From: Halorubrum tebenquichense DSM 14210
GTDB lineage: Archaea; Halobacteriota; Halobacteria; Halobacteriales; Haloferacaceae
Direction: 5' to 3'
Assembly: GCF_000337415.1 (NCBI RefSeq)
Contig: NZ_AOJD01000076.1
Span: forward strand, 27,190-62,222
DNA length: 35,033 nt
A model generated the notes under the pieces. It made no database searches, was not told the DNA's origin, and saw only the letters and a program-made list of their open reading frames with translations. Numbering within the stretch: the stretch's first letter is position 1; every line of letters starts with the position of its first letter. Below are positions 6,344 through 15,215 of this stretch, one piece after another. A program made the position numbers and the translations under genes.

Positions 6344-7271
6344 GGGCGACGACGGCACCGGGACCGGGCCGAGGGCCGGCGGCGACGAGCCGCCGACCCG
6401 CGGCCGCGAGGACGCGGTCGGCACAGTCTTCCTCGTCGGGTCCGGCCCGGGCGACCCGGACCTGCTGACGGTGAAGGCGAAGCGGCTGATCGAGTCGGCC
6501 GACGTGGTCCTCCACGACAAGCTCCCCGGCCCGGAGATCCTCGGCGAGATCCCCGAGGCGAAACGCGAGGACGTGGGGAAACGCGCCGGCGGCGAGTGGA
6601 CGCCCCAGGAGTACACGAACCGGCGCATGGTCGAACTGGCCGAGGCGGGGAACCGCGTCGTCCGGCTGAAGGGCGGCGACCCGTTCGTCTTCGGCCGCGG
6701 CGGCGAGGAGGCGGAGCACCTCGCCGAGGCCGGGATCCCCTTCGAGGTCGTCCCCGGCGTCACCTCCGCTATCGCCGGGCCGGCGGTCGCCGGGATCCCG
6801 GTGACCCACCGCGACCACGCCTCGTCGGTCTCGTTCGTCACGGGCCACGAGGACCCGACGAAAGAGGAGTCCGCCGTGGACTGGGACGCGCTCGCGGCGA
6901 CCGGCGGGACCATCGTCGTGCTGATGGGCGTCGGCAAGCTGCCGGCGTACACCGCCGAACTCCGCGACGCCGGCCTCGACGGCGACACGCCGGTCGCCCT
7001 CGTCGAGCGCGCCACCTGGCCCGACATGCGGGTCGCGGCCGGCACGCTCGACACCATCGTCGAGGCCCGAGACGAGGCGGGGATCGAGCCGCCCGCGATC
7101 ACCGTGATCGGCGACGTGGCCGCGACCCGCGACCGCGTCGTGACCTTCCTCGAAAACGCCGGCTCCGCGCCGGTCCGGTCGGCGAGCGAGGACGACGCCC
7201 CGGCGGAGGAAAGCGCTTCGACGGAGGGCGACGGAGACGACGCGCCGACCGGCGGAGGTGACGAGACGTGA
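6336..7271 (+). CDS. cobA: Uroporphyrinogen-III C-methyltransferase (SUMT)
   Basis: SAM-dependent enzyme that methylates uroporphyrinogen III at C2 and C7 to give precorrin-2, the branch toward siroheme, cobalamin and the archaeal heme route. The 311 residues hold the family motifs VGSGPGDPDLLTVKA (34-48), VRLKGGDPFVFGRGGEE (about 110-126), VPGVTSAIAGPAVAGIPVTHR and GTIVVLMGVGKL. The first 28 residues and the last 40 are acidic, low-complexity extensions. It starts at an ATG within the end of hemC and its TGA overlaps the GTG of hemD, so the three genes form one coupled operon. It could be named cobA or sumT; no siroheme synthase domain is fused to it. Confidence 0.92.
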   Translation: MSEGDDGTGTGPRAGGDEPPTRGREDAVGTVFLVGSGPGDPDLLTVKAKRLIESADVVLHDKLPGPEILGEIPEAKREDVGKRAGGEWTPQEYTNRRMVELAEAGNRVVRLKGGDPFVFGRGGEEAEHLAEAGIPFEVVPGVTSAIAGPAVAGIPVTHRDHASSVSFVTGHEDPTKEESAVDWDALAATGGTIVVLMGVGKLPAYTAELRDAGLDGDTPVALVERATWPDMRVAAGTLDTIVEARDEAGIEPPAITVIGDVAATRDRVVTFLENAGSAPVRSASEDDAPAEESASTEGDGDDAPTGGGDET

Positions 7272-8038
7272 GCGACGACGGGGACCGGGGGCCGCGTGTG
7301 GCGGTCTTCCGCCCGGACGACGAGCGGATCGAGACGGCGGTCGAACTGCTCCGGTCGCTCGGCGCGGACCCGGTCGCGGACCCGATGCTCGAAGTCGAGC
7401 CGACGGGGGCCGTCCCGGAGGGCGCGCCGCTCGTCGTCCTCACGAGCAAGACCGGCGTCGAACTGGCCGCCGAGGCGGGCTGGGAGCCGGGCGACGCCGA
7501 CCTCGCGGCCATCGGGCCGGCGACCGCGGCGGCCGCCCGCGAGGCGGGCTGGACCGTCGACGTGGTCCCCGAGGAGTACACCTCGGCCGGCCTCGTCGCG
7601 GCGCTCGAACCGCGCGTCGCGGGCGGGCGCGTCGTCGTCGCCCGCTCCGACCACGGGAGCGACGTGCTGCTCGACGGGCTCCGCGAGGCCGGCGCTGACG
7701 TGACCGAAACCGTGCTGTACCGGCTCTCTCGACCGGGGGACGCGGGCGACTCGGCGACGGCGGCGGCAGCTGGGGACCTCGACGCTGTCGCGTTCACCTC
7801 CTCGCTGACGGTCGAGAACTTCCTCGCGGCGGCCGCCGACCGCGGCGTCGGCGACGAGGCGCGCGCCGGGCTGGCGGACGCGGTCGTCGGCGCGATCGGT
7901 CCCCCGACCGCCGAGGCGGCCGCCGAGAACGGCGTCGAAGTCGACGTGGTCCCCGACGAGGCGTCCTTCGAGGCGCTCGCGACCGCGGTCGTCGACGCCC
8001 TCGACGGCCAGAGCGGGGGGGACGCCGACCGACGGTAG
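7268..8038 (+). CDS. hemD: Uroporphyrinogen-III synthase
   Basis: HemD closes and inverts ring D of hydroxymethylbilane to form uroporphyrinogen III, the substrate of the methyltransferase encoded just upstream. The 256-residue protein has the loose two-lobe pattern of the family: an N-terminal VAVFRPDDERIETAVELLRSLGADPVADPMLEVEP segment, LVVLTSKTGVELAAEA, VARSDHGSDVLLDGLREAGADVTETVLYRL, AFTSSLTVENFL, and AIGPPTAEAAAENGVEVDVVPDEASFEALATAVV near the end. HemD sequences diverge strongly, so operon position is part of the evidence. The GTG start overlaps the previous TGA by four bases (GTGA), and no better start lies downstream before the first beta strand. Confidence 0.9.
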   Translation: MSDDGDRGPRVAVFRPDDERIETAVELLRSLGADPVADPMLEVEPTGAVPEGAPLVVLTSKTGVELAAEAGWEPGDADLAAIGPATAAAAREAGWTVDVVPEEYTSAGLVAALEPRVAGGRVVVARSDHGSDVLLDGLREAGADVTETVLYRLSRPGDAGDSATAAAAGDLDAVAFTSSLTVENFLAAAADRGVGDEARAGLADAVVGAIGPPTAEAAAENGVEVDVVPDEASFEALATAVVDALDGQSGGDADRR

Positions 8039-8737: not shown

Positions 8738-10066
8738 TCAGACGGGTGCGTCCGTCTCGATCCCGGCCCTCTCGACGACGCGTTCCGCCTGCCGAGCGGC
8801 GCGCTCGCGGACCGCGGCGGCGTTGACGCCGACGTGCTCGCCGTCGGCGTAGCGGACCTCGCCGTCGACCATCGTGAAGACCACGTCGTCGCCGTGGGCG
8901 GCGTACACCAGATGCGAGAGCGGGTCGTGGAGCGGCGTCGCCCGGGTCAGATCGGTCGTGATCCCGATCAGGTCGGCGCGCTGGCCCTCCCGGAGAGTCC
9001 CGAGGCGGTCGAAGCCGGCCGCGCGAGCGCCGCCCGCCGTCGCCATCTCCAGCACGGTCGCGGCCGGGAGCCGCGTGGGGTCGCGGGCGTCGACCTTCCC
9101 GAGGAGGCTCGCCTGCCGCATCTCGGTGAAGGGGTCGAGCGTGTTGTTACACGGCGGGCCGTCGTTGCCGAGCGCGACCGTGATCTCCCGGTCGAGGTAG
9201 TCCTGGACCGGCGCGATCCCCGAGGCGAGCTTCATGTTCGAGGAGGGGCAGTGGGTGACGACCGTGTCCGTCTCGGCGAGCACCTCGCGCTCGCGCTCGT
9301 CCGTGTGGACGCAGTGCGCGAGCGTCACGTCCGGACCGGTCAGCCCGACCTCGTCGAGCCAGAGCACGTTCCGCTTCCCCGTGTCGGCCTCCACCGTCTC
9401 GATCTCGTCCTCGTTCTCGCTGGCGTGGGTGTGGATCGTCACGCCGTCGTACCGGTCGGCCAGTTCGCGGCAGCCGCGCAGGCACGCCTCCGTACAGGTG
9501 ACGGCGAACCGCGGCGTGACCGCGTACCGAACGCGGCCGTCCGCCGCGCCGTGGTACTCCCGGATGAGGGCCTCGCTCTCGGCGAGCGCCGCGTCGGTCT
9601 CCTCCAAGAGGCCGTCGGGCGAGTCGCGGTCCATCAGCACCTTCCCGAGCCGCGCCCGGATCCCGGTGTCGATCGCGGCCTCGAACGCCTCCGCGGCGTG
9701 GTTCACCGAGAGGTGGTCGACGACGGTCGTCGTCCCCGATTCGAGACACTCCAGGTAGCCCAGCTCCGCGGCGGCCCGCGTCGCCTCGGCGTCCATCGCG
9801 GCCTCCATCGGCAACACGGCGTCGAACAGCCAGTCCAGCAGCGCGGCGTCGTCGGCGATCCCGCGGCCCAGCGACTGGACGGAGTGGACGTGGCCGCCGA
9901 CCAGCCCCGGCGCGACGATGTCGAACTCGCGGCGCTCGTGGTCGGGGTAGCGCTCGCGGAGGGCGGTCTCGTCGCCGACCGCGGCGATCGTTTCCCCCTC
10001 GACGACGACAGCGCCGTCGGGGACGACGGTCTCCGAGTCGGCGACGACTGTTCCGGCTATCAGCAT
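8738..10066 (-). CDS. Amidohydrolase, 5'-deoxyadenosine / SAH-MTA deaminase type
   Basis: A 442-residue metal-dependent hydrolase of the TrzN/SsnA-like amidohydrolase family. Residues 59-61 give the metal-binding HxH (GGHVHSVQSLGRG), followed by ECLESGTTTVVDHL, VTIHTHASENEDE, VTLAHCVHTDE, VVTHCPSSNMKL and the late metal ligand in VALGNDGPPCNNTLDPF. Family members deaminate adenosine-type nucleosides such as S-adenosylhomocysteine, methylthioadenosine or 5'-deoxyadenosine; the sequence alone does not settle the substrate, and guanine or cytosine-type deamination is less likely. The ATG at 10066 was chosen because the first strand (MLIAGTVVAD) starts there and a CTTATA box is centred 28.5 bases upstream. 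Longer frames upstream run into the repeat region. Confidence 0.82.
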   Translation of the reverse strand: MLIAGTVVADSETVVPDGAVVVEGETIAAVGDETALRERYPDHERREFDIVAPGLVGGHVHSVQSLGRGIADDAALLDWLFDAVLPMEAAMDAEATRAAAELGYLECLESGTTTVVDHLSVNHAAEAFEAAIDTGIRARLGKVLMDRDSPDGLLEETDAALAESEALIREYHGAADGRVRYAVTPRFAVTCTEACLRGCRELADRYDGVTIHTHASENEDEIETVEADTGKRNVLWLDEVGLTGPDVTLAHCVHTDEREREVLAETDTVVTHCPSSNMKLASGIAPVQDYLDREITVALGNDGPPCNNTLDPFTEMRQASLLGKVDARDPTRLPAATVLEMATAGGARAAGFDRLGTLREGQRADLIGITTDLTRATPLHDPLSHLVYAAHGDDVVFTMVDGEVRYADGEHVGVNAAAVRERAARQAERVVERAGIETDAPV

Positions 10067-10091
10067 ATCCGTCCGTTCCTGTCGGTCGGTG

Positions 10092-10097
10092 TATAAG
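10092..10097 (-). promoter_or_regulatory. TATA box of the amidohydrolase gene
   Basis: Minus-strand CTTATA centred 28.5 bases before the ATG at 10066, predicting a leaderless or nearly leaderless transcript. Confidence 0.55.
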
Positions 10098-10170
10098 AGG
10101 CTGTCCGTTCGACGGCCGACCGCTGAACCGCGTCTCGACCACGGATCGGGACGAGATCCATACCGTGGGC

Positions 10171-10325
10171 GGTGGCGCGTGCCTGCGAGCGGTCGCCCTC
10201 GGCGACCGCGAGTCAGCACGCGCGAGGGAGTCGCTGGCCCCGGAGCGAAGCGGAGGGTGCCAGCGACGAGGCTGGGGAGGTGTGAGGTGCGGTCGCTGTG
10301 CGGTGCCGGGTGGGATTCGAAGGGG
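10171..10325 (+). repeat. Dispersed two-hairpin intergenic repeat, copy B
   Basis: Starts with ggtggcgcg. An inner 9-bp hairpin (10189-10197 with 10201-10209, loop ctc) sits inside an 8-bp outer stem (10175-10182 with 10216-10223). A second hairpin pairs TCGCTGG (10231-10237) with CCAGCGA (10260-10266). The tail shares ctggggaggtgtgaggtg and gggtgggattcgaagg with copy A at the window start. From 10326 to 10401 follows unclassified DNA containing a gcaaggagcgaacggag stretch. No gene is supported in this part of the intergenic region. Confidence 0.8.
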
Positions 10326-10401
10326 CAGTCGCGAGGACGAAGACGCGCGACGCAAGGACCGCAAGGAGCGAACGGAGTGAGCGACTGAGGACCACAGCGA
10401 G

Positions 10402-10645
10402 CGCATCGAGTCCTCGCGACTGGGGCTTCGGCGGTCGTGTTCCAGTCGATGACCGCGCATCGAGTCCTCGCGACTGGGGCTTCGGCGGTCGTGTTCCAGT
10501 CGATGACCGCGTATCGCCGAGCGACTGGGGCTTCGGCGGTATCCGTGCCGATCGGTCATTTATAAACAAGAACGCGATCGTATCGCCGAGCGACTGGGGC
10601 TTCGGAGGTGATCAGCACCGCTCCGCAGACATATATTTATAAATG
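10402..10645 (+). repeat. Four tandem units with a gactggggcttcgg core and TATA boxes
   Basis: Units begin at 10402, 10456, 10510 and 10579 (periods 54, 54 and 69). Each carries the core gactggggcttcgg, at 10418, 10472, 10523 and 10592. The first two units are near-identical. The third carries a TTTATAAAC box at 10559-10567, and the fourth is followed by an AT-rich segment with TTTATAAA near 10636. The box in unit 3 lies about 27 bases before the core of unit 4. No convincing open frame is present; the cluster lies upstream of the amidohydrolase promoter. Confidence 0.8.
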
Positions 10646-10714
10646 AGCGGCCGTAGTCGCCAGCGTCCCACAGTCGAACGCTTATAAAATCCTACCGTGA
10701 CAAACGGACTCCGT

Positions 10715-15011: not shown

Positions 15012-15094
15012 GGTGGCGCGCCTGCGAGCGGCCGCCCTCGGCGGCCGCGAGCCAGCCCGCGAGGGAGTCGGCGGCGACCGCCGGGAGCCGCCGA
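15012..15094 (+). repeat. Dispersed two-hairpin intergenic repeat, copy C
   Basis: Starts with ggtggcgcg. The first hairpin is 9 bp with loop ctc (15028-15036 with 15040-15048). The second pairs TCGGCGGC (15068-15075) with GCCGCCGA (15087-15094). Copies A and B have different stem bases at the same places, but the pairing is kept. The shared A/B tail is absent; a core unit follows directly. Confidence 0.8.
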
Positions 15095-15215
15095 CGCGGC
15101 TGGGGCTTCGGTCGTGTCCGTGTCGATCGGTCGCTGATAAACGACACCAACAGCGTATCGCCGAGCGACTGTGGCTTCGGACGTGTTCACCGCACCAGCG
15201 TCGATCGCGTTTATA
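15095..15215 (+). repeat. Core units following copy C
   Basis: Two cores occur here: ggctggggcttcgg (15098-15111) and gactgtggcttcgg (15167-15180). Between them lies a TGATAAAC box near 15135, and a TTTATA box lies at 15210-15215. The stretch tcgatcgg before the first box and cgtatcgccgagcgact before the second core match the units at 10510-10600 and, in reverse, those at 34950-35033. The gap 14911-15011 and 15216-15333 shows no gene. Confidence 0.72.

Follow-up and report, generated by a model that had tools for sequence, protein, structure and literature searches.

What kind of element is the dispersed repeat that recurs in the window, by which we mean the whole stretch of 35,033 nucleotides analysed here, and why do both arms of its hairpins change together? 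A preliminary description had noted three copies (A, B and C) with two hairpins each and proposed that pairing itself is selected, pointing to a structured RNA or to a mobile element dependent on its hairpins.

Architecture of the element

The complete element is represented by copy B, which sequence and folding place at 10171-10431 on the + strand and which consists of P1/P2, P3, a G-rich linker and P4. The hairpin arms quoted before for copies A, B and C were all found as given. Copy B does not end at 10325 as first described, however, but reaches 10431 and includes a larger hairpin, P4, that had been overlooked.

All parts listed here lie on the + strand. The 5' end of copy B is GGTGGCGCG, and a conserved 5' block, GGTGGCGCGTGCC (10171-10183), which is present in nearly all copies, contains the 5' arm of P1 (10175-10182). 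P1 pairs GCGCGTGC with GCACGCGC, its 3' arm (10216-10223). Nested inside P1 is P2 (10189-10209), with the sequence GCGGTCGCC-CTC-GGCGACCGC and a GA on either flank, which is hairpin 1 of the preliminary description. A conserved block GCGAGGGA (10222-10229) precedes P3 (10230-10267), the former hairpin 2, which carries the apical mini-hairpin GCGAAGC. A further conserved block, GAGGCTGGGGAGG (10268-10280), forms the core of the pattern used for copy counting and is followed by the G-rich linker (10281-10317), whose 3' end is the conserved GGTGGGAYT. P4 (10318-10430, arms 10318-10338 and 10410-10430) is the part found throughout the order. Its outer helix CGAAG/CTTCG is followed by a symmetric GGG/GGG internal loop and then by a helix of 13 bp and a rod of short steps with G.A tandems between them; P4 thus has a long variable helix and a conserved interior. 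Set against 200 dinucleotide shuffles, copy B folds better than 199 of them, whether computed as RNA (z -3.6) or as DNA (z -3.3). As a rule an element unit measures 215-275 nt and has several hairpins.

Downstream of copy B a tail (10432-10609, + strand) contains extra copies of the 3' end CTGGGGCTTCGG, 51-69 bp apart, with TTTATAA between the last two. Mini-units of this kind, which repeat the 3' end of the element in the window (10420-10609) and at other loci, are spaced by 51, 54, 57, 63, 66 or 69 bp, and 46 of the 48 distinct spacing values are multiples of 3. A coding tail was considered for this reason and rejected, as no reading frame is open in every unit. The lengths of the elements themselves are not multiples of 3 and the long ORFs in the region cross it mechanically, so that the earlier statement that the copies encode no protein holds.

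Two further resemblances were dropped: that of GGGATTCGAA to a tRNA T arm, because its flanks do not pair like a T arm, and that of GTGGGACTGAAAG to the ends of haloarchaeal CRISPR repeats, because its bases vary with their P4 partner. Five loci (L060, L066, L072, L184, L233) have extra near-perfect hairpin pairs (e.g. CACGAGAGCGAAGCTCTCGTG, AATCAGAACGCGAAGCGTTCTGATGACGACG) inserted within P4 or beside P3, with loops in both orientations (GAA, TTC).

The other two copies in the window are partial. Copy A (1-139, - strand) comprises the 5' part and runs on past the window edge, just outside of which a one-N assembly gap lies inside its P4. In copy C (15012-15110, + strand) P1/P2 and P3 are fused directly to GCGGCTGGGGCTTCGG, and the G-rich linker and the 5' half of P4 are missing. 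This arrangement is consistent with loss of the stretch between two GGCTGGGG repeats, so copy C is probably a deletion derivative.

Copy number, genomic context and distribution

Recurrence of the repeat is beyond chance: the central 20-base pattern has 109 matches with at most two mismatches in the 3.3-Mb Halorubrum genome, while the reversed control has 5. This puts the number of copies in the genome at 109 or more. From the source genome and related genomes 110 copies were extracted as a study set, 76 of them from the source genome. Nearly all copies are intergenic, in either orientation, and the few others may be gene-calling errors. The flanking genes occur in all four orientations, divergent pairs being the rarest setting in the source genome. 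Where the left gene points toward the element it ends at a median distance of 36 bp, and where it points away it starts about 95 bp from it. In two related genomes the main chromosome holds all exact motif copies; in a third all but one are chromosomal, and the exception is of a different sequence type. The Halorubrum plasmids yielded one partial match. A periodic or replication-oriented placement was also considered and rejected, the spacing being random and a strand walk giving p values of 0.07-0.40 in three genomes.

Five contigs of the source genome (C43, C56, C58, C64, C87) start inside a copy of the element, and gaps of a single N are located in or beside hairpins of copy A and of L010, L012, L014, L017 and L121. 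Therefore the assembly breaks at the repeat, the element accounts for these breaks, and some copies are unreliable at such points.

The element is carried by all 52 Halorubrum genomes searched, and at least a weak match is present in 23 of 28 genera of the family. Its architecture can be recognised in other genera, some of which have P4 alone. Within the order, the P4 signature 15-mer GGGACTSRAAGGGGC is present in 173 of 293 genomes, representing 53 of 87 genera; one genome has as many as 158 copies of it, and the control stays near zero. Some of the single matches may be due to chance. The paired structure was found in named Halorubrum, Haloarcula, Halobaculum and Natronococcus. Carriage by viruses was rejected: all 30 matches of a 17-mer in viral contigs look like chance and none has P4 behind it. 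No description of the repeat was found in the literature searched, subscription journals lying outside the search.

Selection on pairing

The stems of the element vary strongly and stay paired. Among 108 copies P3 has 86 distinct sequences, with clean stems in nearly all, and in the counted helices of P3 and P4 about 96% of the positions are Watson-Crick pairs, well over column shuffles. When 181 P4 units were picked by their flanks and conserved interior alone, complementarity not being required, 95% of the first nine pairs were Watson-Crick, compared to 68% after shuffling, and 56 different 9-nt 5' arms were present. In the outer P4 helix, whose partners are about 100 nt apart, one pair is G-C or A-T in 171 of 174 copies and the next is C-G or G-C in 173 of 174; this set had been selected for a paired inner helix, with no condition on the outer pairs themselves.

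For a formal count of covariation we used 61 distinct P4 ends from several genera with no pairing filter, and a null of shuffled and slid partners that is not tree-based, the slid-partner control retaining the relatedness of the copies. Here 96.6% of the cells are paired (64.8% when shuffled), and covariation is 0.770 compared to 0.188 for shuffled and 0.074-0.146 for slid partners. Of the 17 pairs, 13 show changes in both partners, with 330 cells so changed. The covariation among many copies that had been proposed as a check is thus present. What is fixed in the element are the unpaired junction motifs and the tandem G.A internal loops, whereas the helix sequences are almost free provided that they pair. 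One strand is favoured: with RNA and DNA parameters alike, each of the 72 copies folded gave a better structure for the + than for the - strand, and over distinct P4 arm pairs G.T exceeds A.C by 28:8 (p=0.001), although in P3 alone both are equal (5:5). Because the stem sequences change almost freely yet stay complementary, selection clearly acts on the fold of one strand. The proposal that pairing itself is selected, drawn from three copies, is strongly supported by these far larger sets.

DNA-level correction of palindromes is known in general, and template switching at hairpins is a mutational process that could keep the palindromes perfect and make the arms change together with no selection for pairing. 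Such a process should, however, also remove the tandem G.A mismatches and the GGG/GGG loop of P4 from their otherwise perfect helices, yet both are fixed across genera, and it gives no reason for one favoured strand. We regard it as a highly improbable source of the pattern.

Inherited sites and replaced hairpins

The insertion point of copy B is identical in the source genome (G000) and in two related genomes (G015 and G046), with flanks of 92-97% identity, while P2, P3 and P4 differ. Over nine ortholog pairs, three of which come from one site, identity is 0.79, compared to 0.81 for random copies between genomes and 0.80 within a genome. In almost every orthologous pair compared all three hairpins have been replaced, and the types of P2, P3 and P4 assort independently. 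The insertion points are inherited. The contents turn over, as we strongly infer, by exchange of hairpins as cassettes between copies, because orthologs are no more alike than random copies and the hairpin types are independent of each other. An outer P4 pair shows concerted change over dozens of loci: all copies on the G017 chromosome have CAAAG, nearly all in G015 have CGAAG, and G025 is mixed. Between the element at site B and an amidohydrolase gene, G046 additionally has an insertion-sequence transposase gene (L084, about 7100-7800), which is absent in G000 and G015.

The joint change of both arms in copies A, B and C is therefore real, although it is largely due to exchange of whole cassettes, and base-by-base compensation is not its sole cause. 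One could go further and attribute the paired changes to gene conversion of whole hairpins alone, with pairing unselected, in agreement with the exchange and independent assortment of whole hairpins. Since conversion relocates hairpins that are already there and creates no new complementary arms, the 56 different P4 arms with their 95% Watson-Crick pairs refute it as a sufficient cause. As a complete explanation it appears extremely improbable.

The high copy number and the dispersal would also be accounted for by a non-autonomous element (MITE, PATE or REP-like) that a transposase mobilises in trans and that needs its fold for transposition alone. At one orthologous intergenic position G046 carries the element and G000 lacks it, but this single comparison is too diverged to define an exact junction. 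Deletion derivatives like copy C resemble the 'terminal-only' PATEs of Haloquadratum, and two P4-only copies from another genus of the family (L167, L177) are flanked by MITE-like inverted repeats, TGTTTARTTA/TAACTAAACA. The Halorubrum copies, however, have no visible terminal inverted repeats or target duplication, and the element hardly occurs on secondary replicons or on Halorubrum plasmids. A Y1/TnpA-type transposase (IS200/TnpA, PF01797) occurs once in the source genome, and the ends of this one TnpA-bearing locus gave only short matches to the repeat, at chance level; none was detected in six genomes with 36-82 motif copies each (G015, G001, G029, G007, G066, G176). What stands of the mobile element first proposed is the dispersal, which is certain; current mobility is less certain in view of these observations and of the many sites common to several species, and we consider transposition as the purpose of the fold rather doubtful.

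DNA or RNA

If the + strand of each copy were transcribed, the folded RNA might act in trans or bind L7Ae or Lsm. Such a structured ncRNA family would agree with the strong covariation and with the better folding of the + strand, the advantage of which is greater with RNA parameters. The tandem G.A loops are compatible with RNA as much as with DNA. In addition, 27 of 110 copies have a TATA-like box a short distance upstream, for the most part at a single spacing: TTATAA begins 14-17 bp ahead of GGTGG (position about -16) in 20 of the 25 cases where the box was placed. A further TTTATAA follows the 3' end by about 23 bp in many copies and recurs in the tail units. However, about three quarters of the copies have no such box upstream, and since the archaeal spacing from TATA box to start is about 26 bp, transcription would begin inside P1 and lose its 5' arm. 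Nor would read-through yield one strand, because the flanking genes lie in four orientations. Rfam (4227 models) gave no match at the gathering threshold, nor at E<=5 on positions 10000-10700.

The loops point in the same direction. Of the 135 apical loops in P3 and P4, 107 have the form C(GNA)G or C(GNNA)G, and the GNNA loops of all hairpins have a pyrimidine at position 3 in 16 cases and the GNRA form in 4, so that the repertoire is one of C(GNA)G and GNYA and not of the GNRA or UUCG loops of an RNA family. P2 loops are more mixed and often not GNA, and DNA parameters miss some of the terminal loops of P4. The sequence cGNNAg is a preferred DNA tetraloop. Both d(GCGAAGC) and GNA loops form extraordinarily stable DNA mini-hairpins (PMC6582339, PMC6479982). 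The loop repertoire thus leans toward single-stranded DNA, which it would seem to fit better than RNA. Of the structured RNA of the preliminary description the covarying helices are confirmed, while the mixed gene orientation, the small share of copies with a TATA-like box and the DNA-fitting loops make an RNA unlikely.

We favour, with a probability of roughly 0.55, the reading that the repeat is an ancient, mainly chromosomal, non-coding element with a strand-specific fold, which probably acts as single-stranded DNA and would be shuffled by non-allelic recombination. The capacity of the + strand to form the three hairpins P1/P2, P3 and P4 is maintained, and on this reading the active form would be an array of single-stranded DNA hairpins, exposed while DNA is replicated, recombined or repaired. 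Exchange of cassettes with other copies, by gene conversion or single-strand annealing, may use the conserved junction motifs as short homologies. A putative trans-acting protein, reading shape and loops but not stem sequence, could have maintained or spread the family; no partner protein for the folded element was found. Going beyond this, one may tentatively picture order-wide folded single-stranded DNA elements at about 100 fixed intergenic sites per genome, whose cassettes would be continually exchanged and whose shape would be read by a putative archaeal recombination or replication protein. This picture, built on comparison of sequences, is possible but in its entirety somewhat doubtful.

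Comparison with known systems

Many haloarchaea have tens to more than 100 copies of the element per genome, with very clear covariation, yet it has no Rfam family. The turnover of its interior at fixed sites offers a natural assay of non-allelic recombination in polyploid archaea, and with stems that vary almost without limit while fold and loops stay constant, selection on DNA folding can be tested directly against selection on RNA folding.

The PATEs of Haloquadratum walsbyi (PMC3119063) are likewise haloarchaeal, non-coding, dispersed and palindromic and give deletion derivatives between internal repeats. Their palindromes, however, are near-terminal and correspond to IS605-type ends (PMC3119063), whereas here three internal hairpins with hypervariable stems fill an element whose family is order-wide. 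No match of the element to IS605-type ends was found in the comparison with the one TnpA-bearing locus of the source genome. REP/BIME sequences with RAYT transposases share the intergenic position, the high copy number and the palindromes, but REPs are 20-40 bp long with tagged ends (PMC3733652), in contrast to the 110-265 nt, several hairpins and free stem sequences found here. Haloarchaeal MITEs and SMRs are also short, non-coding and present in many copies, and are defined by terminal inverted repeats (PMC3119063). In the Halorubrum copies, in contrast, GGTGGCGCG at one end shows no complementarity to CTGGGGCTTCGG at the other.

With regard to mechanism alone, the element may be likened to the attC sites of integrons, single hairpins beside gene cassettes that are used by the IntI recombinase. 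There, too, the fold of one DNA strand sets the function and the stem sequence is variable, but the present elements are solitary, have several hairpins and have no known recombinase. Interspersed palindromic repeats are thus a known kind of sequence, and it is by its length, its free stems, its turnover at fixed sites and its order-wide spread that this element differs from all families compared.
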